22,255 bases of DNA from Candidatus Poribacteria bacterium. Lineage in GTDB: Bacteria; Poribacteria; DTPJ01; WJIO01. Position numbers and translations under genes: made by a program. Numbering within the stretch: position 1 is the stretch's first letter; each line of letters starts with the position of its first letter. Below, one piece after another: positions 268-19,702 of the stretch. The notes under the pieces are model-generated. The model saw only the letters and a program-made list of their open reading frames with translations. It was not told the DNA's origin and made no database searches. The DNA is taken from contig WJIO01000403.1 of assembly GCA_014730235.1 (NCBI GenBank), forward strand, positions 1 through 22,255, written 5' to 3'.

Positions 268-1068
268 TTGACAGGGAAGAAACAACCAAACAGCAGGCAG
301 CGGAGGTTATGGGGAATCTCCGTTGCCACCTTTATGCTTATCCTCCTTTACGGAAAACTAAATATGAAATTATCAGGAGTAGAGATACCTAAAAAAACAG
401 CCATTGTAATTATTATAATTTTCGTTGGGGTAGGAATTCAAGGGGTTATATATGCCTTTCGTTATTTTAATGGAAATGATCCATCTGAACCAGAAATAAA
501 TAAGAATATTTCTAAAAATACAACAACTAGTAAATTCATATCTATAACCGGTGTAACGACATATAGAGACATGGAAGAATACCAGGTTGTAACAGACCAA
601 GATCTTCTTATGCCCCTGGGATGGGAGAAATCACAACCAAAACCAGAACCAGAAAAAGAACCCAAAACTTTCATCAGAGAAATAACAAGAGAAGAGCCTA
701 AACCAAACAAAAGCCTAATTCTAACAGGAATAACAAAGCTGGATGGTGAATTGATGGTTCTTATGGAGGATTTATCCGATAATAAAGCATATTATCTTAA
801 ACAGGGTGATGGTTTGAAAAATTACATGGTGGATGAAATAACCCAGGATAAAGTAATATTGACTAACGGTAAATCTGAGATAATAGCTCATCTTGGATCA
901 AGAACTACTTATAACTCAGATGGTGTTCTTCTGGCGTCTGCATCGTCTTACGAATTTGAACCATCAAGCGCAAAAACGGAATCGGAAACATCAGTTGATG
1001 ACGATACAAAATTAAGTATCATAGAGCGGATGAAAGCCCGACGGAGGAAGGAATTAGGCAAGGAATGA
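268..1068 (+). CDS. GspC/PilP-like inner-membrane protein of a type II secretion system
   Basis: Likely the bitopic or polytopic inner-membrane protein that links the inner-membrane platform to the secretin. Residues 13-31 and 43-64 are hydrophobic, the second strongly so (AIVIIIIFVGVGIQGVIYAF). A Pro/Glu/Lys-rich linker follows (about 120-150), then a small beta-rich domain (about 150-210, LILTGITKLDGELMVLMED) of the kind called HR domain in GspC and PilP. The C-terminus is charged. The start is a TTG only 7 bp after the preceding gene, with just a weak AGAAG upstream; an ATG at 364 would delete the first hydrophobic segment. The stop overlaps the gspD start as ATGA. The family call rests on domain layout and position before gspD, because sequence similarity in this family is low. 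Confidence 0.6.
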   Translation: MTGKKQPNSRQRRLWGISVATFMLILLYGKLNMKLSGVEIPKKTAIVIIIIFVGVGIQGVIYAFRYFNGNDPSEPEINKNISKNTTTSKFISITGVTTYRDMEEYQVVTDQDLLMPLGWEKSQPKPEPEKEPKTFIREITREEPKPNKSLILTGITKLDGELMVLMEDLSDNKAYYLKQGDGLKNYMVDEITQDKVILTNGKSEIIAHLGSRTTYNSDGVLLASASSYEFEPSSAKTESETSVDDDTKLSIIERMKARRRKELGKE

Positions 1069-3395
1069 AACAGATGATTAATCTATCACAAAGATATATT
1101 TATAGAATATTTTCATGGTTTTTATGTTCCATTGTATTTATATTATTTCTTTCTATAACTGGGGGATCAGTCTTAGCGCAGGAAGATGGCCTTATTTCCA
1201 TGAGTTTTCGTGATGCGGAAATTGATTATGTTCTTGACTTTTTCTCCAGGGCAACAGGATATACTGTAGTAAAGGATGCTGAAATAAAAGACCGAATAAC
1301 AATAATCGGGGAAAAAGATTTAACTACTGATCAGGCAATATCGGTGCTTAATTCTATTCTGGCTGTAAAAGGTTATACAACTGTAATTAACGATAAAGTT
1401 ATCAAAATAGTCAAGCTGGATAGTGCCAAGCAGGAAAATATACAGATAAATGTAGGTTCAGATCCGGATAATATTAATTCATCCGATACTATTGTTACCC
1501 AGATTATGCCCCTTTCAAATACCAATGCCGCTCAAATTGTAAAAGAGTTAAATGTATTAATGCCTGAATATGGTGTTATGGTTGCTCATACCCAGAGCAA
1601 CACACTTATTATTATTGCCAGTTCTTCCAAGATTAAAAAATTTGCCCAAATTGTGAAGGAACTTGATATTCCTGTATCTGATATGATCAAGGTAGAGGTT
1701 TTTCCCATACAATACAGAGAAGCGGAAGCCCTTGCTGATGTTATAGAGGATATTTTTGACAGACCTACAGGAACCAGCGCATCAGAGCAGGCGGAACGGG
1801 AACGAAACGCCATGTTACAAAGATTTCGGGGTAGAGTTCCTGGTGGGTTTGGGCCTCCAGGTAGCGAGCAGCAAGAGCAACAGACATCCACAGACAGCGA
1901 AATACTCCAGGTGCGAAGTAATGTAACTGTGGTAGCCGATGAGGATACCAACTCTATAGTAGTATCGGCCAGTCAATCTAATATAGCTTTAATTGGTGAA
2001 TTAATTAAAAAGCTGGATAAGGAAATTACCGGGCGCCCGGAAACCAGAATTTTTGCCCTTGAGAACGCAGATGCGGTTGAAGTTTCAGATGAACTTGATG
2101 AGGTTTTTGAATCCAGCAGCAGTTCGTCGAACCAAAACAGGTTTGGTTTTGGGAGATTTGGACGGGGACCTCAAGCCCCACAAACGCAAGGCGGACAATC
2201 CGGTGAAGGTATTCTTGGACTGCCTGAAATAAATGTAGTTGCTGATGAGCGCACAAACTCTGTTATTGTAACCACTACTACAGAACAAATGGATAATATA
2301 GGCCTACTTATCTCACAGCTCGATAAAGATATCTCGGATTTTGAGGAAACCACCGAAGTAATTCAACTGGAGAACGCTGAGGCAGATCAGTTAGCAGATG
2401 TGCTTAATGAGTTATTTGAAACATCCACCTTTGAACAAAGCCGGGGTAGAACTACAACCAGAGCCAGAGGCGGAGTTATGGGAACAGCTGCTGAAACCAT
2501 AGAAACAGCAAGAGGTCTTAGCGGGAACGTGAAAGTTGTGGCGGAAGACACGACAAATTCTCTGATGATAACCACATACAAACGTAATCTTGACAAAGTT
2601 AAAGAGATCATAAAAGCACTGGATATTATGCTGCCCCAGGTGTTAATTGAGGTTAAAATTGTAGAAGTCAGCCTTGATGATGAAAGTAAATTTGGCGTTG
2701 AATGGATGTGGGAACATACCACCACATCCAAAGGTAAAAGCTACAATAAGACCGGTGTAACCGGTTTTGGGTTAGCCGATGAAGTATATGGCCTTAAATA
2801 TGGCATAGTCGGTAAAACTATTGAGGGCATGTTGATGGCCCTGGAGAAAAACACCAACGTAAATATCCTTTCAACCCCTAGAATTTTAACCCTTGATAAC
2901 CATGAAGCTGTAATCAACATAAGTCAGGAAGTTCCTTATCTGGAAAGCACCCAGGAAACTCAAACCGGTGGCGTTTTGACCAGCTATAATTACAAGGATG
3001 TTGGCGTTATATTGACAGTTACCCCTCGCATCAACAAGTCGGAAACTGTATCTTTGGACGTAGAACAGGAAATAAACAGCCTGATTGAATTCACCCTCTT
3101 TGATGCTCCCGTAATTGCCAAACGCGAAGCATCTGCATCTGTGACCGTCAAGGATGGTCAATCAATGATCATCGGTGGAATTATTGAAGACAACAAAACA
3201 ACCACCATAAACAAAGTTCCCATTCTTGGTTCTATACCGTTTATTGGTAAGTTATTCCAGCGGGAAGAAGCCAATATAGAAAAAACTGAACTTATGGTAT
3301 TTATAACCCCACATATAATCCGGGATACTGAAGAAGCTGAAAAAATCACCCGGGAACAGAAATCAATAATAAATTTGCCCAGAAAAAAAGGTTAG
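1065..3395 (+). CDS. gspD: Type II secretion system secretin GspD, with one extra N-domain
   Basis: Outer-membrane secretin that forms the exit pore for folded periplasmic proteins. A signal peptide ends near residue 38 (SVLA/QE). An N0 domain (about 42-118) is followed by four NolW/secretin_N-type repeats at about 141-203, 210-320, 327-423 and 431-520. Each ends in a recognisable strand-helix unit such as VVADEDTNSIVV or VVADERTNSVIV. The secretin barrel occupies about 524-752 and includes VPILGSIPFIGKLF (718-731). The usual GspD has N0 plus three repeats; this one has four, three of them carrying long Gly/Arg/Gln/Ser insertions. At 776 residues it is longer than most GspD. There is no AMIN domain, which argues against PilQ. 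It overlaps the GspC-like gene by 4 bp and ends 4 bp from a convergent gene. Confidence 0.93.
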   Translation: MKQMINLSQRYIYRIFSWFLCSIVFILFLSITGGSVLAQEDGLISMSFRDAEIDYVLDFFSRATGYTVVKDAEIKDRITIIGEKDLTTDQAISVLNSILAVKGYTTVINDKVIKIVKLDSAKQENIQINVGSDPDNINSSDTIVTQIMPLSNTNAAQIVKELNVLMPEYGVMVAHTQSNTLIIIASSSKIKKFAQIVKELDIPVSDMIKVEVFPIQYREAEALADVIEDIFDRPTGTSASEQAERERNAMLQRFRGRVPGGFGPPGSEQQEQQTSTDSEILQVRSNVTVVADEDTNSIVVSASQSNIALIGELIKKLDKEITGRPETRIFALENADAVEVSDELDEVFESSSSSSNQNRFGFGRFGRGPQAPQTQGGQSGEGILGLPEINVVADERTNSVIVTTTTEQMDNIGLLISQLDKDISDFEETTEVIQLENAEADQLADVLNELFETSTFEQSRGRTTTRARGGVMGTAAETIETARGLSGNVKVVAEDTTNSLMITTYKRNLDKVKEIIKALDIMLPQVLIEVKIVEVSLDDESKFGVEWMWEHTTTSKGKSYNKTGVTGFGLADEVYGLKYGIVGKTIEGMLMALEKNTNVNILSTPRILTLDNHEAVINISQEVPYLESTQETQTGGVLTSYNYKDVGVILTVTPRINKSETVSLDVEQEINSLIEFTLFDAPVIAKREASASVTVKDGQSMIIGGIIEDNKTTTINKVPILGSIPFIGKLFQREEANIEKTELMVFITPHIIRDTEEAEKITREQKSIINLPRKKG

Positions 3396-9104: not shown

Positions 9105-10152
9105 TACCGGCAGAAATATACTGGAAGGTCGTTCCGGCTGGGGGTTATTTAAGCCGGCCTGGGAAGCCCTGGATAAATTTTACTTTGGTGTTCCTGAAAT
9201 AACCTCTGGCGCACCGCATGTCCGGGACAATATAAGCCTTAAAAGGTGCATGATTTTTGTTATGATAGCCGCTGCGCCATCGGCTTTGGCATCTGTATAT
9301 TTTTTTGGCTGGCAGGCCCTTCTTGTTATCTTTGTCTCATATCTTTTTGGTGTCAGCACCGAATGGTTTTTCTCGGCAGTCCGGAAGGAAGAGATCAACG
9401 AGGGTGCTTTTGTAACCTGCCTGCTTTATCCCCTTACCTTGCCGCCAAGTATACCACTATGGGTTGTTGCTGTGGGAATAGTTTTTGGCACAGTTTTTGG
9501 CAAAGAGGTATTTGGCGGTACAGGTAAAAACCCCTTTAATCCGGCCCTTACAGGCAGAATATTTATAGCCATTGCATTTCCTTCTATAATGGCAAACCAA
9601 TGGCAAGAACCTATAGAAGGTATTTTTGGGGGATTTCAGTCATACTCGCCGGATGGGATAACTTCAGCTACACCTCTGGTAAATTTCAAAGGCTCTGGAG
9701 AAATAACCAGTTATTGGCATCTCCTTATGGGAGGTGCTCCGGGATGTCTTGGTGAAACCTCCCGGATACTGATAATTATTGGTGGGATATTTCTCATGGT
9801 AACAAAAATTAGCAACTGGAGAATTCCCCTGACTTATCTTGGCTCAGTTGCATTATTATCCTCTATTCTTTCTTTTTTTAAACCCGATATATTTGCACCG
9901 CCATTATTCCAACTGCTGGCTGGCGGCTTGATGTTTGGCGCCATGTTTATGGCAACAGATCCGGTCACGTGCACCATGACTATAAGGGGTAAATGGGTAT
10001 ATGGAATTATGCTGGGGATATTAACAGTTACTATAAGGGGATTATCAGTATATTCTGAAGGTGTGATGTTCTCTATACTCCTGATGAATATTTTTGCCCC
10101 GCTTATAGATAAAAGTGTATTGCATCGAATGAAATTAAGGTACGAGACATGA
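9079..10152 (+). CDS. rnfD: NqrB/RnfD integral-membrane flavoprotein subunit
   Basis: Multi-spanning subunit of Rnf/Nqr complexes that carries a covalently bound FMN and takes part in ion translocation. The core (about 105-160) reads KEEINEGAFVT, then LPPSIPLW, then GKEVFGGTGKNPFNPAL, closer to NqrB wording than to classical RnfD. The flavinylation motif is DGITSATPL (192-200), with Thr198 as the expected FMN attachment residue. The C-terminal part has FMATDPVTCTM (290-300). About ten hydrophobic segments are visible. At 357 residues it is between RnfD and NqrB in length. The start lies inside the rnfC end (26-bp overlap) and the stop overlaps the next gene as ATGA, a tight operon. Confidence 0.9.
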   Translation: MKIIRKILDTGRNILEGRSGWGLFKPAWEALDKFYFGVPEITSGAPHVRDNISLKRCMIFVMIAAAPSALASVYFFGWQALLVIFVSYLFGVSTEWFFSAVRKEEINEGAFVTCLLYPLTLPPSIPLWVVAVGIVFGTVFGKEVFGGTGKNPFNPALTGRIFIAIAFPSIMANQWQEPIEGIFGGFQSYSPDGITSATPLVNFKGSGEITSYWHLLMGGAPGCLGETSRILIIIGGIFLMVTKISNWRIPLTYLGSVALLSSILSFFKPDIFAPPLFQLLAGGLMFGAMFMATDPVTCTMTIRGKWVYGIMLGILTVTIRGLSVYSEGVMFSILLMNIFAPLIDKSVLHRMKLRYET

Positions 10153-10733
10153 AAAACAGGATATGGACAGTTGTTTTTCTGGTTATAATTGTTTGTATTT
10201 CTACTATACTGCTGGATTATGTTTATGTCTATACTGAACCAGTGGTCCAACAAAATCAGCAGATTAAAATACAAAAAAGCGTTCTGGAAGTTCTGGGTAT
10301 TGATTATGAAGAAGATAAAATGACAGAAGTATTTAGCAAATCCATTAATATACATAAATTGGATGAATATACCATATACAGAACCGGAACAGGGGAAACT
10401 GCTTTCATGATAGAAGGTCCGGGTCTGTGGGGGGAGATTTCCGCTTTAGTAGCCCTGGAACCAGACATGGAAACTATAAAAGGCTTAAGGGTATTGGAAA
10501 ATAATGAAACGCCGGGTTTAGGAGGTCAAATTGCTGAAGATTGGTTCCAGGATCAGTTTAAGGGAAAGAAGATAAAACCGGAGATAAGAATTATACCCTA
10601 TAAAAAGGTAAAATCGGTTAATGAAGTGGAGGCCATTAGCGGTGCAACAAAAACGAGTAAGGCCTTTGAGAAAATAATAAATGAAAATATAAAAATAATC
10701 CTAAAGTTAAATACTTATCCCTCTAACCCATAA
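10149..10733 (+). CDS. rnfG: NqrC/RnfG FMN-binding subunit
   Basis: Periplasm-facing, membrane-anchored flavin subunit. One N-terminal helix (about 6-26) is followed by an FMN_bind domain. The features are GLWGEISALVALEPD (92-106), NNETPGLGGQIAEDWF (118-133) and the flavinylation motif EAISGATKTS (161-170), where Thr167 should carry the FMN. The ETPGLG element is shared by NqrC and RnfG. It overlaps the upstream gene by 4 bp and its last 27 bp overlap the 3' end of the convergent sensor gene. No rnfE, rnfA, rnfB or nqrDEF follows, so the operon ends here. Flavinylation would need an ApbE-type enzyme, which is not in the window. Confidence 0.9.
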   Translation: MKNRIWTVVFLVIIVCISTILLDYVYVYTEPVVQQNQQIKIQKSVLEVLGIDYEEDKMTEVFSKSINIHKLDEYTIYRTGTGETAFMIEGPGLWGEISALVALEPDMETIKGLRVLENNETPGLGGQIAEDWFQDQFKGKKIKPEIRIIPYKKVKSVNEVEAISGATKTSKAFEKIINENIKIILKLNTYPSNP

Positions 10734-13700
10734 CCTAAAAATATCCATACTAAAGCGATATTGACACTTTCCATCATTTTTGAGATTTCTTTCCAGAATA
10801 CCCTTCCGGGACAGATTGAACATAATGCTTTCGATTACTTTTTTGCTTTTGTTGTCTCCCATGTAAACAGATAGATCACCGGGCATATTATAATCAAAGG
10901 GCTTATTTAATATTTGGGCCATAGATGAAAGTATTTTCTGTTCGTAAGGCTCAAGGAATTTCCATTTCTCCATCATTATACTTTTTTGCTTATCTATTAT
11001 TTCATTAATCACATATTCCACATCCGACTGTCTTACTATGTTCCTTTCTACCGTGTTCAATCTATCCACCAGATTCTTGAATAATAACTGGGTATAATAT
11101 GGATGTCCAGCCGTCATGCGAAGCAGTTTGTTGAAAATACCTTTTGCATAAATAACATGCCCTTCTATGGGTTTTATAAGCTCCAGTATATCCTTTTTGG
11201 AAAAATTCCTTAGCTGACGATGAGAACATAATCTGGCTACAGAATGCCAGCAAGATCTGATTTGGGAATCGAAAGCTTTTGGGCCAGTTAATATTAAAAC
11301 CAGATTAGGGATAAGTTTTATCAATTCAGCCAAATAGGCTGGGAAATCCTCTCCCAAAGCTCTGTTTTCAATTCGCTCTTCTATCTCTTCATAATCATCA
11401 AATAATAGAATTAAACGACGACCGGAAAAATTTTTCAGCATTTCTGCAATGGCTTCAGAAAATGTTTCTCTTGATTCAATTCTGGATAGATCAAAATCCT
11501 TTGTATTAAAACCTCTATTAGATATAATTTCCTTAATATCCCTAGCTATCCACTTCAGTAATTCTTCTTCCCTGGTAAATTTGGCATTTTTTATATCAAC
11601 AAAAACAGGCAAAACTCTTTCACCAAGAATACCTCTCTCTATTTGTAGTATCATAGACGTTTTGCCTGTTTTTCGTTCACCGGTAAGAAGAATAATTACA
11701 CCCTGTTTTTCCCGACTTAGCCTCATTTGTATAAACTGGATGAAGTTGTTTCGCCCCACAAACATCTTATCTGAAGATACAGGCTGATCCACAATAAATG
11801 GATTTGGCAAAGGTTTGAATACCCGGTTTCTTTGACGGACTGTTAATGCTGTATAAGCTAATGTAGGTATCAGGAAAACCACCAGTATTGTTATTACAAG
11901 AAACCAATTGTGCTTATAAAAAGGAGGTTTAGCTACTTTCATTTTTATTGTTATGGGTTCGGAGTAGTTAATATTCCTGTCAATAGCCTGTATTCTGAAA
12001 TTATAATCACCGGGTTTTTCAAATATATAGTCAATGGATGTGTTTTTTATGGGTTTACTCCAGTTTGGTTCTGCGGTGTCAATGCTGTAGCGATACTGTC
12101 TTTTTTCCGGTGCAGTTCTGAAATCCATGGAATTGAAAAATATAGTAATCCTTGTTCCTATTTCAAAATCCGGTAATACATCAGCAGCATTATAGCTTTG
12201 ATCAGCTTTAAGGGAAACTATTTCTATTTTTGGCGATGCCTTTTTCCTTTCGTACCTTATAACACCTTCCTGAGTTCCAAACCAATGGAAGCCATCAGAA
12301 TCCTGGTATATAGAGAATATGCTGTTACTATTGAAGCCATCCCTGGTATCCAGAGAAGACCAAACTGTGCCGTCATATATGGAAACACCTCCACCATCAG
12401 TACCAAACCACATCAAACCATCCTGATCCTGATATATAGAAAGTACTATATTATGGGAAAGGGAATCCTCTGTGGTAAAATGAATAACCTGATTGTCATC
12501 ATATACAAAAACGCCTTTATCTGTACCAAACCATAAACGATTTTCTGAATCACAATAAATCGTATTTATGTGCTTATTTATCAATCGTGGTTCAATGTTA
12601 AAAGCTGTAACAGTGTTTCCATCATATTTATAGACACCTTCGTCTGTTCCAATCCAGGTAATATTATTTTTATCCTGGCAAATGTTTCTCACAATACTAT
12701 TGGTCAAATTGCTCTTTTCCCCAATTTTCTTTAGTGTGGTACCGTTATAGTAAAATATCCCATCTCCATAAGTACCAAACCAGATTGCATCATCTTCATC
12801 AAGATAGATAGATCGTATATCAAAATTTGACAGGACTTTTTCTGGCACAATGAAATTACCGTCACTAAATCTGTAAATACCCGCGCTGGTACCAAACCAT
12901 AGTGAATTATTAGACGATTTTTGCATACACCACACCCTGTCATCGGGCAAACTATCCCTGCCTTTAAAGGACACAAAACCCTTACCGTCATAGTATGAAA
13001 TACCGTTAAGGGTGGCAAACCAGATATTACCATCTTCATCACTGCATATAGATGTAACGTTGTTATTAACAAGCCCATCCTTAATCCCGAAACAGGTTAT
13101 TTCTTTATTCAGGCATGAAACACCTCCTCTCAGGGATGTGGCATTACCTGTGCCAAACCACAAGAATCCATCTTGATCCTGATATATTGCATTGACGTTG
13201 TTATCCAGCATACCATCGGCAGTTGTAAGGTTTACAAAGCTTTCACCGTCATACCTGGAAGCGCCGCCTTTTGTTCCAAACCATATATTTTCGTCCTTAT
13301 CAATATAGATGCTGTTGATGCAATTGCTTGCCAGACCATCGTTTTTGGTGATATTCTTGAAATTATTTCCATCATACAGAGACGCTCCACCGTCAGTTGC
13401 AAACCATATCAAGCCATCGGGATCAAGGGAAATATCATAAACTTTGTTATTTATAAGTCCATCAAACTTTGTGAAATTTGTAAATTTCCCCCCAGAATAA
13501 TAAGATACCCCTCTATCTGTACCTATCCACATAGAACCTTTATTATCAAAAAGTATTGATCTTACATTGTTATTAACCAGGCCGTCTTTCTCGGTAAGAT
13601 TTGAAAATCTGATACCATCATGAGATGAAATACCAGCATTAGTGCCGCACCATACAGCACCTTTAGAATCAACACTGACGCAGTTTACGTTGTTGCTTAA

Positions 13701-15140
13701 CAGGCCATCTTCTGATGTCAGACCTATCATTTCGCCGTTATCGTAATGCAGCAAGCCTTTGTCCGTAGCAAGCCATATATTCCCCTGATCATCAATATGA
13801 ATATCGTTAACTTTATCGCTTGCCAGACCGTAGGATGTATTAATATTTTTAAAATTATTGGAATCAAAACATGATATACCGCCGCCGGCTGTTGCAAACC
13901 ATATATTCCCATCGGATTTGGAGCCGCAAATATCTGTAATAATGTCGTATGCAAGTCCATCCAGATATGTGTAGTTTTTCCATGTCCACTTTTTAAATGG
14001 ATGTAGTTTAAAAGATATATCTTCAGTCGTTTCTCCTTTTTTGATATATATGGTATTGGCTTCTAATTCTCGGGTAGAATATTTATTTTCACCGGCATAA
14101 TATACATAACCTGTGTCAGTTTGACACCTTAACTTATATTTTCCCGGTTTAAGGTTAATAAATTGGTATTCACCTTTATTATTGCTTAAGACAGTGGAAA
14201 CCGGTAATTTATTATCTGAATTGGATTCTATTACCTGAACAGGTACAGCTACATGAGGAGTTTTTCCATCACCCATTAGGAGCTTACCTTTAATGCTTAA
14301 TGCCGGTTTTAACTTTAGATCCTGCCTGCGATACATACCTTCCTGAACGTGGATACCCGTCTCCCAGTTGCCGTATTTACCTTTAGTAGCCGACAGGTCG
14401 TATATGCTCTGCACTGGATGGATCAAAAGACGGTAACGTCCCCGATAATCAGAAGTTGCTCTGGCAACTTCCTTACCTTTGCGTTGTAATCTTACATCTG
14501 CGTTATATACAGGTATTCCATCGCTTTCAACAATCACACCGGAAACCACTGCGCTGCAAGTTTTCAATGCCCTTATAGAAAATAAACAGGAATTGCCTGA
14601 TGTAGAAAATTTTATGATGCATGAGTTTAATCCCTTTTTGAGGTTTGCCGTAAAGGATGTTCCATCAATCTTTAGTTTGCCGGATAGAGGATTATTGTAG
14701 ACTTCTTTTCCGTTTATCCACATAACAAAGGCTGAATTACTGGCCATGAGAAAACGGAATTCCCCAGGCGTGGCGGTTCTGAGGTAGCAAAAGGCATACG
14801 CGGTATAATTGGAGTGATAGCCTATTGCTTTCTGGAAGTCTACAATATCACCTCGGGAGGAGTGTTTTTTCCAGGTAGGTTTTGGACTTTTTGCAGTTGG
14901 TGGGTTGCTGATAATTAATGGATCAACATTTCTTTGGCTGCTGTATTCCTCAAGAAAGTCTCTTCCAATATCATTCGGGAAAAATGGTCCTAATATCATC
15001 CAGTCACGTATATATTCGGACAGATAATCTATATTTCCCGACGTATAATCCAGAGATATGACTACCCGATCATCACCTTCTGACCGGGCATTAGTGACAA
15101 ATACAAAGATAACAAGCACACATAATATCCATCTTTGCAT
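10707..15140 (-). CDS. Transmembrane Reg_prop/Y_Y_Y sensor fused to a cytoplasmic STAND/AAA-type NTPase
   Basis: Domains in order: a signal peptide (1-20); a jelly-roll-like region beginning DWMILGPFF (about 45-195); two carboxypeptidase-regulatory-like beta-sandwiches (about 198-278 and 280-380); fourteen Reg_prop repeats about 41 residues apart, each with a W(F/I)(G/A)T core followed by G(I/V)xxYD (about 395-963, probably two seven-bladed propellers); a Y_Y_Y domain (about 964-1072); one membrane helix (about 1079-1102); then a P-loop NTPase with Walker A GERKTGKTS, Walker B LILLFDDYEE, LILTG, AGHPYYTQLL and a winged-helix-like end. The outside half equals that of hybrid two-component sensors, but there is no histidine kinase, receiver or HTH. 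I chose ATG 15140 because GGGGT lies 7 bp upstream; GTG 15146 is too close to it. It ends convergently, overlapping rnfG by 27 bp. Confidence 0.85.
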   Translation of the reverse strand: MQRWILCVLVIFVFVTNARSEGDDRVVISLDYTSGNIDYLSEYIRDWMILGPFFPNDIGRDFLEEYSSQRNVDPLIISNPPTAKSPKPTWKKHSSRGDIVDFQKAIGYHSNYTAYAFCYLRTATPGEFRFLMASNSAFVMWINGKEVYNNPLSGKLKIDGTSFTANLKKGLNSCIIKFSTSGNSCLFSIRALKTCSAVVSGVIVESDGIPVYNADVRLQRKGKEVARATSDYRGRYRLLIHPVQSIYDLSATKGKYGNWETGIHVQEGMYRRQDLKLKPALSIKGKLLMGDGKTPHVAVPVQVIESNSDNKLPVSTVLSNNKGEYQFINLKPGKYKLRCQTDTGYVYYAGENKYSTRELEANTIYIKKGETTEDISFKLHPFKKWTWKNYTYLDGLAYDIITDICGSKSDGNIWFATAGGGISCFDSNNFKNINTSYGLASDKVNDIHIDDQGNIWLATDKGLLHYDNGEMIGLTSEDGLLSNNVNCVSVDSKGAVWCGTNAGISSHDGIRFSNLTEKDGLVNNNVRSILFDNKGSMWIGTDRGVSYYSGGKFTNFTKFDGLINNKVYDISLDPDGLIWFATDGGASLYDGNNFKNITKNDGLASNCINSIYIDKDENIWFGTKGGASRYDGESFVNLTTADGMLDNNVNAIYQDQDGFLWFGTGNATSLRGGVSCLNKEITCFGIKDGLVNNNVTSICSDEDGNIWFATLNGISYYDGKGFVSFKGRDSLPDDRVWCMQKSSNNSLWFGTSAGIYRFSDGNFIVPEKVLSNFDIRSIYLDEDDAIWFGTYGDGIFYYNGTTLKKIGEKSNLTNSIVRNICQDKNNITWIGTDEGVYKYDGNTVTAFNIEPRLINKHINTIYCDSENRLWFGTDKGVFVYDDNQVIHFTTEDSLSHNIVLSIYQDQDGLMWFGTDGGGVSIYDGTVWSSLDTRDGFNSNSIFSIYQDSDGFHWFGTQEGVIRYERKKASPKIEIVSLKADQSYNAADVLPDFEIGTRITIFFNSMDFRTAPEKRQYRYSIDTAEPNWSKPIKNTSIDYIFEKPGDYNFRIQAIDRNINYSEPITIKMKVAKPPFYKHNWFLVITILVVFLIPTLAYTALTVRQRNRVFKPLPNPFIVDQPVSSDKMFVGRNNFIQFIQMRLSREKQGVIILLTGERKTGKTSMILQIERGILGERVLPVFVDIKNAKFTREEELLKWIARDIKEIISNRGFNTKDFDLSRIESRETFSEAIAEMLKNFSGRRLILLFDDYEEIEERIENRALGEDFPAYLAELIKLIPNLVLILTGPKAFDSQIRSCWHSVARLCSHRQLRNFSKKDILELIKPIEGHVIYAKGIFNKLLRMTAGHPYYTQLLFKNLVDRLNTVERNIVRQSDVEYVINEIIDKQKSIMMEKWKFLEPYEQKILSSMAQILNKPFDYNMPGDLSVYMGDNKSKKVIESIMFNLSRKGILERNLKNDGKCQYRFSMDIFRLWVRGISI

Positions 15141-15344: not shown

Positions 15345-16619
15345 TTATACTTTCAAGTCAAATATCTCTATATTATTGTCCCAGAGCATAGCTTTTGCCA
15401 CTTTAAGGGCCATGTCCTCGTCCATATAACCGTCTTCAACGATATCAGCTAGTGTATTAGAAAAAGTTTGGATATACAGCTTAATTTTTGCTATAGTCCA
15501 TTCAACATAATAGCTATCCGAATACCAGCCCACAAGTTTTGGATAAGGTACAGCCTGAAGTCTTTCCAGTATCATAGGTTTTATGATACATGGATAAAAG
15601 GTATACCACCAGTGACCGGCGGCATAGCAGTTAGCAAAAGTCTTTGCATATATAGCAAGCTCATGAGTCAAAACAGTATTAAGAATACTGAAAATCATCT
15701 TAACGTTGGGGAATCGGTTCAGAGCATCCCGGAAGGTTTTCATCATATCCATCCGGGTAGAAAACCCATCCCATTCCAGCCTTTTATGTATCTTTCGATC
15801 CACACCCAGCATCATCTGGAACGGCAGATTAAATTCATCACAAACCTCAAACAGACTATAAAGCATATAAGATTTTAACCGGGTTAATTCATAATCTGTA
15901 ACGCGTTTTCCCTGCAGTATATTATCATATATTCCAGCAGCATCTGATTCTGCCACCACAAAAGCCTGAAAATCAGGAGGTAGTGATATGGCCATGGATG
16001 CGGCCCCGATTCCTACGAACTTTTGAGCGATCTGCTTTATACCTTTTTTAACATCACCGAGATTTTTTACCGATGATCCTGTAAGTTTCTCAAGCTTCTC
16101 GCGGGTGGTATCCTGGTCAATTTCCAGAACCCATTCGTCTGTCCTTAAGCTTGGGACAAAATATTCCATATCACAACCTGTCATATCCTCATCAGGCAGA
16201 TTTGTCAAAAACGATTTTTTTATATTTATACTATCCAGAGCTTTTTTATACCAGCCATCCTGACTCATGGTTTCAGATGATATCTCGCATAGATCTTGCC
16301 AATTTTCCTCGTTTATGACTTTATCTTTAAATCCCAGGGCTTCGCATATTGTCATAAAGCCCCACCAGGTAGTGGTATTCTGGATTCTTGGTATATATGG
16401 CAAAGCATTCTTTAAAAAATCATCAGGTGGTAGGGAATCGTCCATTAACGTTTCCACATCCATCCCGGCTGTAGATAGCTCCATCTTGATGTAGTGGTAG
16501 CCAAATATATTCCCGATAACACCGGCTGAAGGCGTTGGATGTTGCAAATGCGTATGTGGATCTATAATTTCCATTTTGCTTATTTCCGCTTCCAGCCTTC
16601 TGGATAATTCACTTCTCAT
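15345..16619 (-). CDS. Uronate isomerase-like (UxaC-like) amidohydrolase-superfamily protein
   Basis: A TIM-barrel metal-dependent hydrolase fold. The first strand carries DPHTHL (His22 and His24). Next come GYHYIKMELSTAGM and a helical insert, which match the DHYKWRAMR-like helix and NPLYHW region of glucuronate isomerase in layout. The last barrel strand has GWYSDSYYVEW (364-374), where Asp368 takes the place of the conserved Asp. The C-terminus DNNIEIFDL is the usual DNxxxLF end. Uronate isomerases convert glucuronate or galacturonate to the keto sugar; the substrate here is not shown. The middle-strand His expected in such proteins (QIHTG type) reads QMMLG (268-272). Length of 424 is a little short of UxaC. 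The ATG has AGGAGG 6 bp upstream. A signal peptide is absent, so it is cytoplasmic. Confidence 0.7.
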   Translation of the reverse strand: MRSELSRRLEAEISKMEIIDPHTHLQHPTPSAGVIGNIFGYHYIKMELSTAGMDVETLMDDSLPPDDFLKNALPYIPRIQNTTTWWGFMTICEALGFKDKVINEENWQDLCEISSETMSQDGWYKKALDSINIKKSFLTNLPDEDMTGCDMEYFVPSLRTDEWVLEIDQDTTREKLEKLTGSSVKNLGDVKKGIKQIAQKFVGIGAASMAISLPPDFQAFVVAESDAAGIYDNILQGKRVTDYELTRLKSYMLYSLFEVCDEFNLPFQMMLGVDRKIHKRLEWDGFSTRMDMMKTFRDALNRFPNVKMIFSILNTVLTHELAIYAKTFANCYAAGHWWYTFYPCIIKPMILERLQAVPYPKLVGWYSDSYYVEWTIAKIKLYIQTFSNTLADIVEDGYMDEDMALKVAKAMLWDNNIEIFDLKV

Positions 16620-16683
16620 TTTATCCTCCTAAACTTAAACAATAAAACCAACAGGTAAAATAAATGAGTTTAATAATATTATT

Positions 16684-16847
16684 GGTTCTTCAGGGTTTAT
16701 TGTGGTAATGTAAAAAACATTGTCTAATTAAGAAAAAACATCCTATGTTTGTCATTCCTGCTTGCGCAGGAATGACTTATTGAAGTAGATATGCTCTTAC
16801 TTAACCAGTAGAATTTCCTTCATTTCCATACTAAACCCGGAAGAGCC
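16684..16847 (-). mobile_element. MITE-like palindromic element, copy B
   Basis: A 164-bp non-coding element with ends GGTTCTTCAGGGTTTATTGTGG and (complement) GGCTCTTCCGGGTTTAGTATGG, the same two end types as copies A and C, in minus orientation. The interior is mostly unrelated to A and C except for the GTCATTCCTGC palindrome (16751-16776). Flanks AATATTATT and ACATTTATT are only partly alike, so any target duplication has decayed. It lies 64 bp upstream of the amidohydrolase start. The remaining part of the gap, 16848-17044, is AT-rich with nothing recognisable. Confidence 0.75.
16751..16776. repeat. GTCATTCCTGC palindrome inside copy B
   Basis: Arms GTCATTCCTGC (16751-16761) and GCAGGAATGAC (16766-16776) are exact complements around TTGC. 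The same arm sequence occurs in the centre of copy A and, with mismatches on one arm, in copy C. Confidence 0.9.
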
Positions 16848-17044
16848 ACATTTATTAAACTTACTAAATCACCCATTTTATATTTATCATAACACCCGAC
16901 AATTTATTTATCAAGCCCTTTATTATGACAATCTGATTTTATACAAACAAAGAAACAAAAAAGCTATTTTTGACCTACTTAAAACCCAAAAGTGTTCACT
17001 TATGGAACAAACAATCGTCTTCCTAAATGTAACAACCTGAATAA

Positions 17045-19702
17045 TTAATCCAGAACATTCAAAAATCCATCGCTGGTGCAGACCAGAATTTCAGCTAGAC
17101 CATCGCCATCCACATCTGCCAATATGGGCGTTCCCGGATCAGCCGATAAAACCACACGCCAGAGAACATGATTATCAGCATGATGATCCAGAGCTATTAA
17201 CTCGTTTGATCCCAGGGGATATAAGAATTCATCGTAACCATCGGAATCAATATCTCCACTAGCGAAGTGTCCGCCGCTCATGGAACCATGACTTTTAAGG
17301 TCTTTCACTTCCCATTTTACCTGCCCTGTTTTGCCGTCGTAACAGGCGATCCTGCCGTCCAGATGATAAAAGGCGATGTCCGGGATTCCATCACCATCGC
17401 AGTCACCGACACCTTGTAGACCGCGAGCGCCAAAATCATTACTTAGGGCTTTTTCCCACAATATATCACATTCAGGGGTCATAATAGCTATGCCGCCGAT
17501 GGCAAAGGAAAACGAGGCCAGCAGGAATTCAGTATTACCATCACCATCAAAATCCGCCGGAATAGGTGTAGAATAAGATTGCCAGCGTTTGAATACATCA
17601 CTCCATATATTTACCGGTTTCTGAAAAGGTTTGCCGGTATTGCCATCCAGTGCATAATAAATATAGGCATAACTGCCGTATATCTCATGGTAACCATCGC
17701 CGTTATTGTCAAAACAAACATAGTTGTTGGGATAAGGCCAGGCCTTGCCTGTATCATCTCGCCATATCTTCCTATGCCACCGTATATCCCCTGTCCTGCC
17801 GTCCAGGCAAAGCATTTCGGGTTGAGTGTTGGCCTGTATGGTAACCAAAACATCCCAACCCTCCTTCCTGAATAAGCCTACTCTGAAAGTTTCGGTAAGT
17901 CCTGGAGCGATCCAGTCAAACTCCGATTTCCAGTAAACTGAACCTTCATGACGTAAAGCGTATATAGTGGTATGCTCTTCATCACCGTTATCACAGCAGA
18001 TAATCTCTTTCTTCCCGTCACCGTCCAGATCAACGACCGACACAGGCGCATGATCAGTTTTCCATGTTACCCACACAGGTTGAGCCGATGCCCGGAATTT
18101 CCACAGCGTTTCAAAGTTGTTATCTTCAAGACGCATAACCCGGATAAATGCCTCAGCATCCTCAACAATTATCTCGTTTTTGCCATCACCATCCACGTCA
18201 GCCACAGCAGGTGTTGCCCTGAAATTCCCTTTTTGATAATGAGATTTTATCTTGGCCGCAGAATTTTCCAGACCGATATTTCCCGATTCAGCATTTACCT
18301 CAACCAGGATACCCAGATCAGAACTCGCTGCCAGGGCTTTAGGCGGCGTTTTAGAAGGGCTTGTTACGGTAAATTTGGTTTTATATTCCTTGCCATCAAC
18401 AGGCAGGAGCTTTTTACCCACAGAAACAAAAAATCCCTCTACATCACCATAACCATTTGTAACCAGAACCGAACGGGTAACAGGCCCCCGGGAGCTTGCG
18501 CTGTTCACATTGTCCGGGAAAAAGTAAGGACGCATGCAAAAACGTCCTTTATCATCGCTCTCCCATCGCTGTATAACCTGATTATCCTTGAGAGTTGAAA
18601 CAAAAAGCCTTGATCTGCGATCAATAGTCTTGTCCAGGGCTTCACTCATGAAGAAGTCAAAACATCCATCCGAATCCAGATCAGCCACAGCCCACAGGTA
18701 GCGATCCTGAATCTCGTATTTAACTTCACCTGTTATAACATCAAAGACTACAACCCGCCACCGTCCTTCTTCCCTGAAATCGTGGATATTTACAGCGAAT
18801 TCTATTTTACCATCACCATCCAGGTCCCGGACTGTATTGGGAAGGTTTTGCAGGTAAAATTCTCTGGGAACAGCCACATCACCTTCGTCTTTCAAATATT
18901 TATGCGACCAGACCATTTCCAGACCTGATGGTTTGTTTGCAATATACTCCAAGTGCGGCGGATCATCGGCCTGTATAACAAAATCCGGACGGCCATCACT
19001 GTTTACGTCCACCACATCAAGCTGACCATAGTTCCTACCTACATTCCAGGATACGCTTTCCTTTTCTTTGCCGGTAAGGGCATCATAAATAGCCAGATGA
19101 TAATGGGTTAAAAGAATAACTTCATCCTGCCCGTCCAGATCAGTATCAGCAATAGCCACTACCGGGGAATACATATCTTTGATCCGCTCAGTTTGCCATA
19201 CCAGCCGGGGGTTGTCCGCACCTTTGTCATAGGCATACATGCGACCGTAGTTTTCCTCCGCGCCTATGCTAAAGGCATTGTCAAACTCCACCTTCTGGTA
19301 TCCCGGAATATCCGGCAGCAGTTTTGCCAGTCTAACGGCTGATTGATTAGTTTTATTTGTCATAGAGCCTTTGCCATCAATATCAACGGAAGGCTGGCTT
19401 AAACCCCATTCAATGCTTGTTCTGCTCAAATAACCATTCCCGAAAATCTCTTCTGGTATACTGACTTCCTCATTTTTATCATCAGAATAATTAACCACCA
19501 GGTGATTAGCCCACATTCCAAGATAATGACGCTGGAGCAATTTCGGTGTTTCAGCCATCTTACCCTTTAATTCCGTATGACCGGTCATCTGGGGATCATG
19601 ACGATCCATAGGCCATTCACTGCCAGAATTGTCCATATCAGCACTCCCGTTGTAAGCAAATAATGCTATTATTGCAGTAAAACAAAAAAAGTATATCATC
19701 AC
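17045..19702 (-). CDS. Secreted FG-GAP/VCBS-repeat protein
   Basis: A large exported protein with a signal peptide (1-20, FFCFTAIIALFAYNGSA) followed by EWPMDRHDPQMTG, a start common to secreted propeller proteins. At least eleven calcium-binding-type DxDxDGxxD/E loops occur along its length (for example DTDLDGQDE, DLDGDGKIE, DFDGDGNTE, DVDGDGLAE), alternating with WxxxL-type blade strands, consistent with one or two integrin-alpha-like beta-propellers. The protein ends directly on the last blade, without an anchor or sorting domain. Such proteins bind ligands or matrix; no enzymatic domain is seen. The GTG at 19702 is followed immediately by an ATG; GGAAG lies 7 bp before the GTG. The gene stands alone, with a MITE-like copy beginning 23 bp upstream. 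Confidence 0.85.
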   Translation of the reverse strand: MMIYFFCFTAIIALFAYNGSADMDNSGSEWPMDRHDPQMTGHTELKGKMAETPKLLQRHYLGMWANHLVVNYSDDKNEEVSIPEEIFGNGYLSRTSIEWGLSQPSVDIDGKGSMTNKTNQSAVRLAKLLPDIPGYQKVEFDNAFSIGAEENYGRMYAYDKGADNPRLVWQTERIKDMYSPVVAIADTDLDGQDEVILLTHYHLAIYDALTGKEKESVSWNVGRNYGQLDVVDVNSDGRPDFVIQADDPPHLEYIANKPSGLEMVWSHKYLKDEGDVAVPREFYLQNLPNTVRDLDGDGKIEFAVNIHDFREEGRWRVVVFDVITGEVKYEIQDRYLWAVADLDSDGCFDFFMSEALDKTIDRRSRLFVSTLKDNQVIQRWESDDKGRFCMRPYFFPDNVNSASSRGPVTRSVLVTNGYGDVEGFFVSVGKKLLPVDGKEYKTKFTVTSPSKTPPKALAASSDLGILVEVNAESGNIGLENSAAKIKSHYQKGNFRATPAVADVDGDGKNEIIVEDAEAFIRVMRLEDNNFETLWKFRASAQPVWVTWKTDHAPVSVVDLDGDGKKEIICCDNGDEEHTTIYALRHEGSVYWKSEFDWIAPGLTETFRVGLFRKEGWDVLVTIQANTQPEMLCLDGRTGDIRWHRKIWRDDTGKAWPYPNNYVCFDNNGDGYHEIYGSYAYIYYALDGNTGKPFQKPVNIWSDVFKRWQSYSTPIPADFDGDGNTEFLLASFSFAIGGIAIMTPECDILWEKALSNDFGARGLQGVGDCDGDGIPDIAFYHLDGRIACYDGKTGQVKWEVKDLKSHGSMSGGHFASGDIDSDGYDEFLYPLGSNELIALDHHADNHVLWRVVLSADPGTPILADVDGDGLAEILVCTSDGFLNVLD

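Follow-up and report, generated by a model that had tools for sequence, protein, structure and literature searches.

How might a receptor with the ectodomain of a Bacteroidota HTCS sensor pass on its signal when a nucleotide-binding module stands in place of the histidine kinase? A sensor of the Reg_prop/Y_Y_Y type is usually coupled to histidine kinases. The question is raised by a gene on a stretch of DNA of 22,255 nucleotides from Candidatus Poribacteria (the window), which corresponds to an entire contig (C349) of a genome of 5.53 Mb and 91.6% completeness. The gene consists of a single unbroken frame of about 1478 codons, along which GC and GC3 are flat. The features of the gene and of its predicted product are collected in Table 1.

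Table 1. Receptor gene and predicted features of its product, with positions in the window.
Feature	Residues	Position	Strand	Basis or remark
Receptor gene	1477-1479 aa	10707..15146	minus	Start GTG 15146 or ATG 15140; stop ends at 10707
Putative signal peptide, MQRWILCVLVIFVFVTNARSEG	1-22	15075..15140	minus	Read from sequence
N-terminal beta-rich domain	23-198	14547..15074	minus	Conserved in Poribacteria
Carboxypeptidase-regulatory-like domain 1	199-277	14310..14546	minus	PF13620
Carboxypeptidase-regulatory-like / SdrD_B-like domain 2	280-378	14007..14303	minus	PF13620 and PF17210
14 Reg_prop blades	385-975	12216..13988	minus	Pfam, motif count, PDB sequence matches
Y_Y_Y domain	985-1070	11931..12188	minus	PF07495
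Single membrane helix, then RQRNR	1079-1101	11838..11906	minus	Hydropathy
Predicted STAND NTPase core and lid	1107-1385	10986..11822	minus	AF2 model and PDB matches
Walker A, GERKTGKTS	1154-1162	11655..11681	minus	Alignment with relatives
Walker B, LILLFDDYEE	1243-1252	11385..11414	minus	Relatives carry DEYE
Sensor-1-like strand, LILTG	1282-1286	11283..11297	minus	
GxP motif, GHPYYTQLL	1345-1353	11082..11108	minus	
Predicted C-terminal winged helix	1386-1477	10710..10985	minus	AF2 model

Pfam analysis of the receptor gave matches above the cut-off for Reg_prop (E-value 5e-70, in 13 stretches), CarboxypepD_reg (twice), Y_Y_Y and AAA_35. Counting of the blade motif gave exactly 14 blades with a spacing of roughly 40-46 residues, and the propeller part matched in sequence the HTCS sensor structures 3v9f, 4a2l and 3ott (E-values from 1e-45 to 3e-28). 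As in 3v9f and 4a2l, the 14 blades presumably form two seven-bladed propellers. Together with hydropathy analysis, these data confirmed the 14 blades, the Y_Y_Y domain and the one membrane helix of a previous reading made from the letters of the DNA (hereafter the sequence-only reading), and the two carboxypeptidase-regulatory-like domains that it had proposed were recovered as the two CarboxypepD_reg matches. The N-terminus, described there as jelly-roll-like, proved to be a real conserved domain with 37% and 28% identity to the N-termini of two poribacterial proteins (L200 and L202, respectively), and the single-sequence model (pLDDT 35) was too poor for its fold to be assigned.

The ectodomain had also been placed at the cell surface. 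The signal peptide and the outer membrane implied by a type II/III secretin gene in the window (1065-3395) and by the Candidatus Poribacteria genome point instead to a periplasmic sensor, and the protein is predicted to be a single-pass receptor of the inner membrane. A glycan or polymer, as suggested earlier, may be guessed as ligand.

The genes around the receptor were inspected as well. Its 3' end converges on an rnfG-like gene (10149-10733) with an overlap of 27 bases. Upstream, on the same strand (15345-19702), a UxaC-like protein and a large FG-GAP/PQQ-like protein are encoded, from which a link of the neighbourhood to the use of sugar acids appears possible.

The cytoplasmic part gave no credible match when its NTPase sequence was searched against the PDB. 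Its structure was modelled with AlphaFold2 from an alignment of the sequences of 54 relatives, with a mean pLDDT of 93.8 and a pTM of 0.89. In a fold search, the best full-length PDB match of the model was the archaeal STAND ATPase 2qen (Z 22.8, rmsd 4.5, 322 aligned), followed by a second archaeal STAND ATPase, 2fna (Z 21.2), by Orc/Cdc6, and then by CED-4, Apaf-1 and plant NLRs. Intact Walker A and B motifs in an ASCE P-loop fold, a GxP lid and a C-terminal winged helix, the criteria of STAND proteins, were all found. The cytoplasmic part is thus predicted from the model to be a STAND NTPase with a winged helix, as the sequence-only reading had proposed on the basis of Walker A, Walker B, LILTG, AGHPYYTQLL and a winged-helix-like tail. 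Immune receptors of plants and animals also belong to the STAND class of switch ATPases. A degenerate histidine kinase, which the AlphaFold check might have revealed, is ruled out by the absence of any HisKA or HATPase_c Pfam match and by the STAND fold of the model. Neither Pfam analysis of the gene nor reading of the adjoining genes revealed a kinase, a receiver or an AraC-type HTH, in agreement with the earlier description. The nSTAND2 family model (PF20702) did not match the window protein. In fold and in the order of NTPase and winged helix, the protein resembles the archaeal STAND ATPases of the SSO1545/PF01637 kind (2fna, 2qen); these are apparently soluble and, unlike the window protein, have no ectodomain.

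The order CarboxypepD_reg, Reg_prop, Y_Y_Y, helix, NTPase and winged helix was found in 11 Acidobacteriota genomes (eight, and three more), where Pfam was run on two of the receptors and the order in the other nine was taken from motifs and alignment. For another poribacterium, G063, five loci encode a related NTPase, joined to a Y_Y_Y or propeller part wherever the contig is long enough. This recurrence, together with the even GC, rules out an assembly fusion at 11800-11900. Reg_prop was absent from the 80 NTPase relatives that ranked highest in the first collection scan, and the fusions surfaced only in the genome searches. The fold search and the recurrence argue for the view that an HTCS-like ectodomain here feeds not a histidine kinase but a predicted nucleotide switch. 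The product of one of the five G063 loci (contig C725; L048, 7913-10768), a Reg_prop-Y_Y_Y-NTPase protein, has no obvious signal peptide or membrane helix and is probably cytoplasmic. At another locus (G000, contig C117; L013, 1335-3478), Reg_prop, Y_Y_Y and helix run into a fragment of a sigma-54 AAA+ activator that lacks the P-loop part and lies in a different frame; this may represent a chimera, a pseudogene or an assembly error.

The two halves of the receptor appear to differ in origin. Segments of the ectodomain are 28-42% identical to poribacterial receptors with other outputs, and the N-terminal domain is common to such receptors where checked. In many Poribacteria, the same type of ectodomain ends in an RsbU/SpoIIE-type (PP2C-type) phosphatase or a histidine kinase, as judged by sequence motifs. 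The phosphatase, an output not usual for the Reg_prop-Y_Y_Y sensor, was observed on the Reg_prop-Y_Y_Y-TM receptors L134-L145, L147, L148, L150 and L151. Receptors of this kind (L134-L145, L202) are like the window receptor in their ectodomain, including the N-terminal domain, and unlike it in the output module. The NTPase shares 30-32% identity with the acidobacterial receptors, against only 22-23% with those of G063. In the NTPase tree, the window copy groups with the acidobacterial receptors and the receptor of the poribacterium G064 (support 99/99 and 100/99). A clade of the window and G063 NTPases, meaning a single origin of both poribacterial Reg_prop-STAND fusions, was rejected (AU p 9e-5), and a clade of the window copy with the acidobacterial Reg_prop receptors alone was not (AU p 0.08). 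The placement in the tree and the rejection of the window-G063 clade indicate at least two separate origins of the propeller-STAND fusion. On these comparisons, the ectodomain is a poribacterial chassis that carries an NTPase from another lineage.

The proposal of a one-protein receptor was not borne out by the nearest NTPase relatives, which nearly always have a second gene, for a soluble STAND NTPase with a Ser/Thr kinase or cyclase-like domain. At four of the first eight acidobacterial Reg_prop receptors, a linked gene encodes an nSTAND2 NTPase (PF20702, E-value about 1e-65) fused to a Ser/Thr kinase (PF00069). A search with a profile of the partner NTPase detected one strong partner in each of these eight genomes, unlinked in four, and the partner was found in all 11 acidobacterial genomes with a Reg_prop receptor. 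In 396 sampled Acidobacteriota genomes, the receptor NTPase was present in 24, the partner in 23 and both in 22 (Fisher p 9e-33, which ignores shared descent); both sets were defined as matches with E-values up to about 1e-60, a cut-off chosen after a gap in the E-values was seen. By their coordinates, receptor and partner share a contig and lie within about 2 kb of each other in 13 of the 22 genomes. The trees of receptor and partner NTPases showed two corresponding lineages, and the NTP-binding motifs are intact in the aligned partners. Other sensors in the acidobacterial set are periplasmic-binding-protein-like, TPR or multi-helix. At L266, L268 and L269, the ectodomain of acidobacterial receptors from this NTPase lineage resembles a periplasmic amino-acid-binding protein, and a STAND-kinase gene adjoins the receptor gene. 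After the receptor gene of the poribacterium G064 come a soluble STAND gene and, at a greater distance, a STAND gene whose cyclase-like domain scored below the Pfam cut-off (19.2 versus 21.9 bits). The same gene order is found on contig C154 of G063, where the cyclase-like domain was recognised by eye only. Since the nearest NTPase relatives nearly always co-occur with a STAND-kinase or STAND-cyclase-like gene, the receptor lineage looks like a two-protein system. Adjacent pairs of genes for related P-loop NTPases, of which frequently just one has a membrane helix, were also seen in Chloroflexota and Cyanobacteria (loci L053, L055, L057-L059, L065, L067 and L071; L106, L108, L117 and L130).

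For the window copy itself, the window contains no second STAND gene beside the receptor gene, and searches with partner profiles, at the sensitivity used, detected no kinase or cyclase partner in its genome. The STAND profile A3 recovered from this genome only the receptor itself (1.1e-12) and a CHAT/NB-ARC/TPR-like protein on contig C173 (1.8e-4), and the STAND-cyclase query gave no match. As no partner was found in the assembled genome, the window receptor is best called an orphan of this lineage, or a receptor with an unassembled partner. Given an incomplete genome and a diverged window NTPase, this result is no proof of absence; the partner may not have been assembled, may have diverged strongly, or may have given way to a different STAND protein or target. 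The window NTPase has DDYEE instead of the DEYEL of its relatives, has lost the YWREMLRRSLFRK stretch and forms a long branch (1.83) in the NTPase tree. The long branch and the loss of residues common in relatives suggest that it may have changed function.

On balance, a model in which receptor and partner NTPase co-assemble, with the window copy as an orphan, was considered slightly more probable than not. It builds on the architecture, the fold, the lineage and the genetic tie of the lineage to STAND-kinases, from which we infer the signalling steps. The periplasmic ectodomain would sense a ligand, whose binding would rearrange a receptor dimer held via Y_Y_Y. The receptor NTPase would then exchange its nucleotide, open and co-assemble with the partner NTPase, by which the attached kinase or cyclase would be turned on or off.

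The lack of a partner in the genome is also what would be expected from a receptor acting alone, in which the winged helix binds DNA and the NTPase serves as switch, as a membrane one-component regulator like CadC or ToxR. The winged helix is slightly basic (16 K+R versus 10 D+E), and DNA is bound by Orc/Cdc6 proteins, which were among the fold matches. However, this charge is only mildly positive, a winged helix is standard in STAND NTPases and common to soluble relatives with other domains, and a partner enzyme accompanies the closest relatives; action as a lone DNA-binding receptor is thus rated as unlikely. For the co-assembly model, a precedent for hetero-multimers is found in the passage on predicted two-gene nSTAND2 systems in Kaur et al. 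(2021; PMC8195603). There, these pairs are predicted conflict systems with GT4 or HEPN effectors, for which hetero-multimers were suggested. The lineage of the window receptor is like the systems of that passage (Fig. 6C) in having two STAND proteins per unit and an nSTAND2 partner in the relatives. It is unlike them in that one member is a transmembrane receptor, that the effectors are Ser/Thr kinase or cyclase-like, that the aligned partners keep their NTP-binding motifs intact, and that the window copy has no second gene. The same passage does not mention transmembrane receptors or kinase and cyclase partners.

The prediction of nSTAND2 pairs as counter-invader systems in that passage (PMC8195603), together with the DS8 anti-phage model, which matches weakly around the P-loop, would suit a defence or conflict sensor. 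Its STAND NTPase would answer phage or damage to the envelope and would set off in trans an effector that kills or arrests the cell. The PADLOC E-values, however, are only 0.0017 and 0.015, GT4 and HEPN are replaced in the partners by kinases or cyclase-like domains, the same ectodomain is used with ordinary signalling outputs, and no defence-island neighbours of the receptor gene were found in the window, all of which make a defence role improbable. A decaying or newly made chimera without signalling role, as might be suspected from the long branch after partner loss, the lost conserved residues and the missing partner, is most doubtful in view of the intact frame, the retention of all NTP-binding motifs and the well-folded model.

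The window receptor is like the Bacteroidota HTCS (3v9f, 4a2l, 3ott) in its Reg_prop propellers, Y_Y_Y and membrane helix, and unlike them in having a STAND NTPase instead of histidine kinase, receiver and AraC HTH. In a literature search on Reg_prop with STAND or ATPase, limited mainly to papers outside subscription, no description of this architecture was found. Neither HTCS ectodomains nor STAND NTPases are new, and pairs of STAND genes had already been predicted; a transmembrane receptor built from the two, with a STAND-kinase as partner, did not appear in the literature searched. Transmembrane sensing in bacteria has been described mostly via histidine kinases, chemoreceptors, cyclases and transmembrane Ser/Thr kinases. 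Whether the propeller-STAND receptors represent a distinct signalling class is judged about evenly balanced. An even chance is given to the reading that the co-assembly model describes a type of transmembrane signalling not described before, in which interchangeable periplasmic sensors (Reg_prop propellers, periplasmic-binding-protein-like, TPR or multi-helix) on a STAND NTPase would activate a soluble STAND-kinase or STAND-nucleotidyl cyclase by heterotypic NTPase assembly. The prediction of the model is testable in a culturable acidobacterium. If true, a switch of the NLR class with its genetically tied STAND-kinase or STAND-cyclase would provide another route of transmembrane signalling in bacteria, and the NTPase class of immune receptors would be linked to ordinary environmental sensing.
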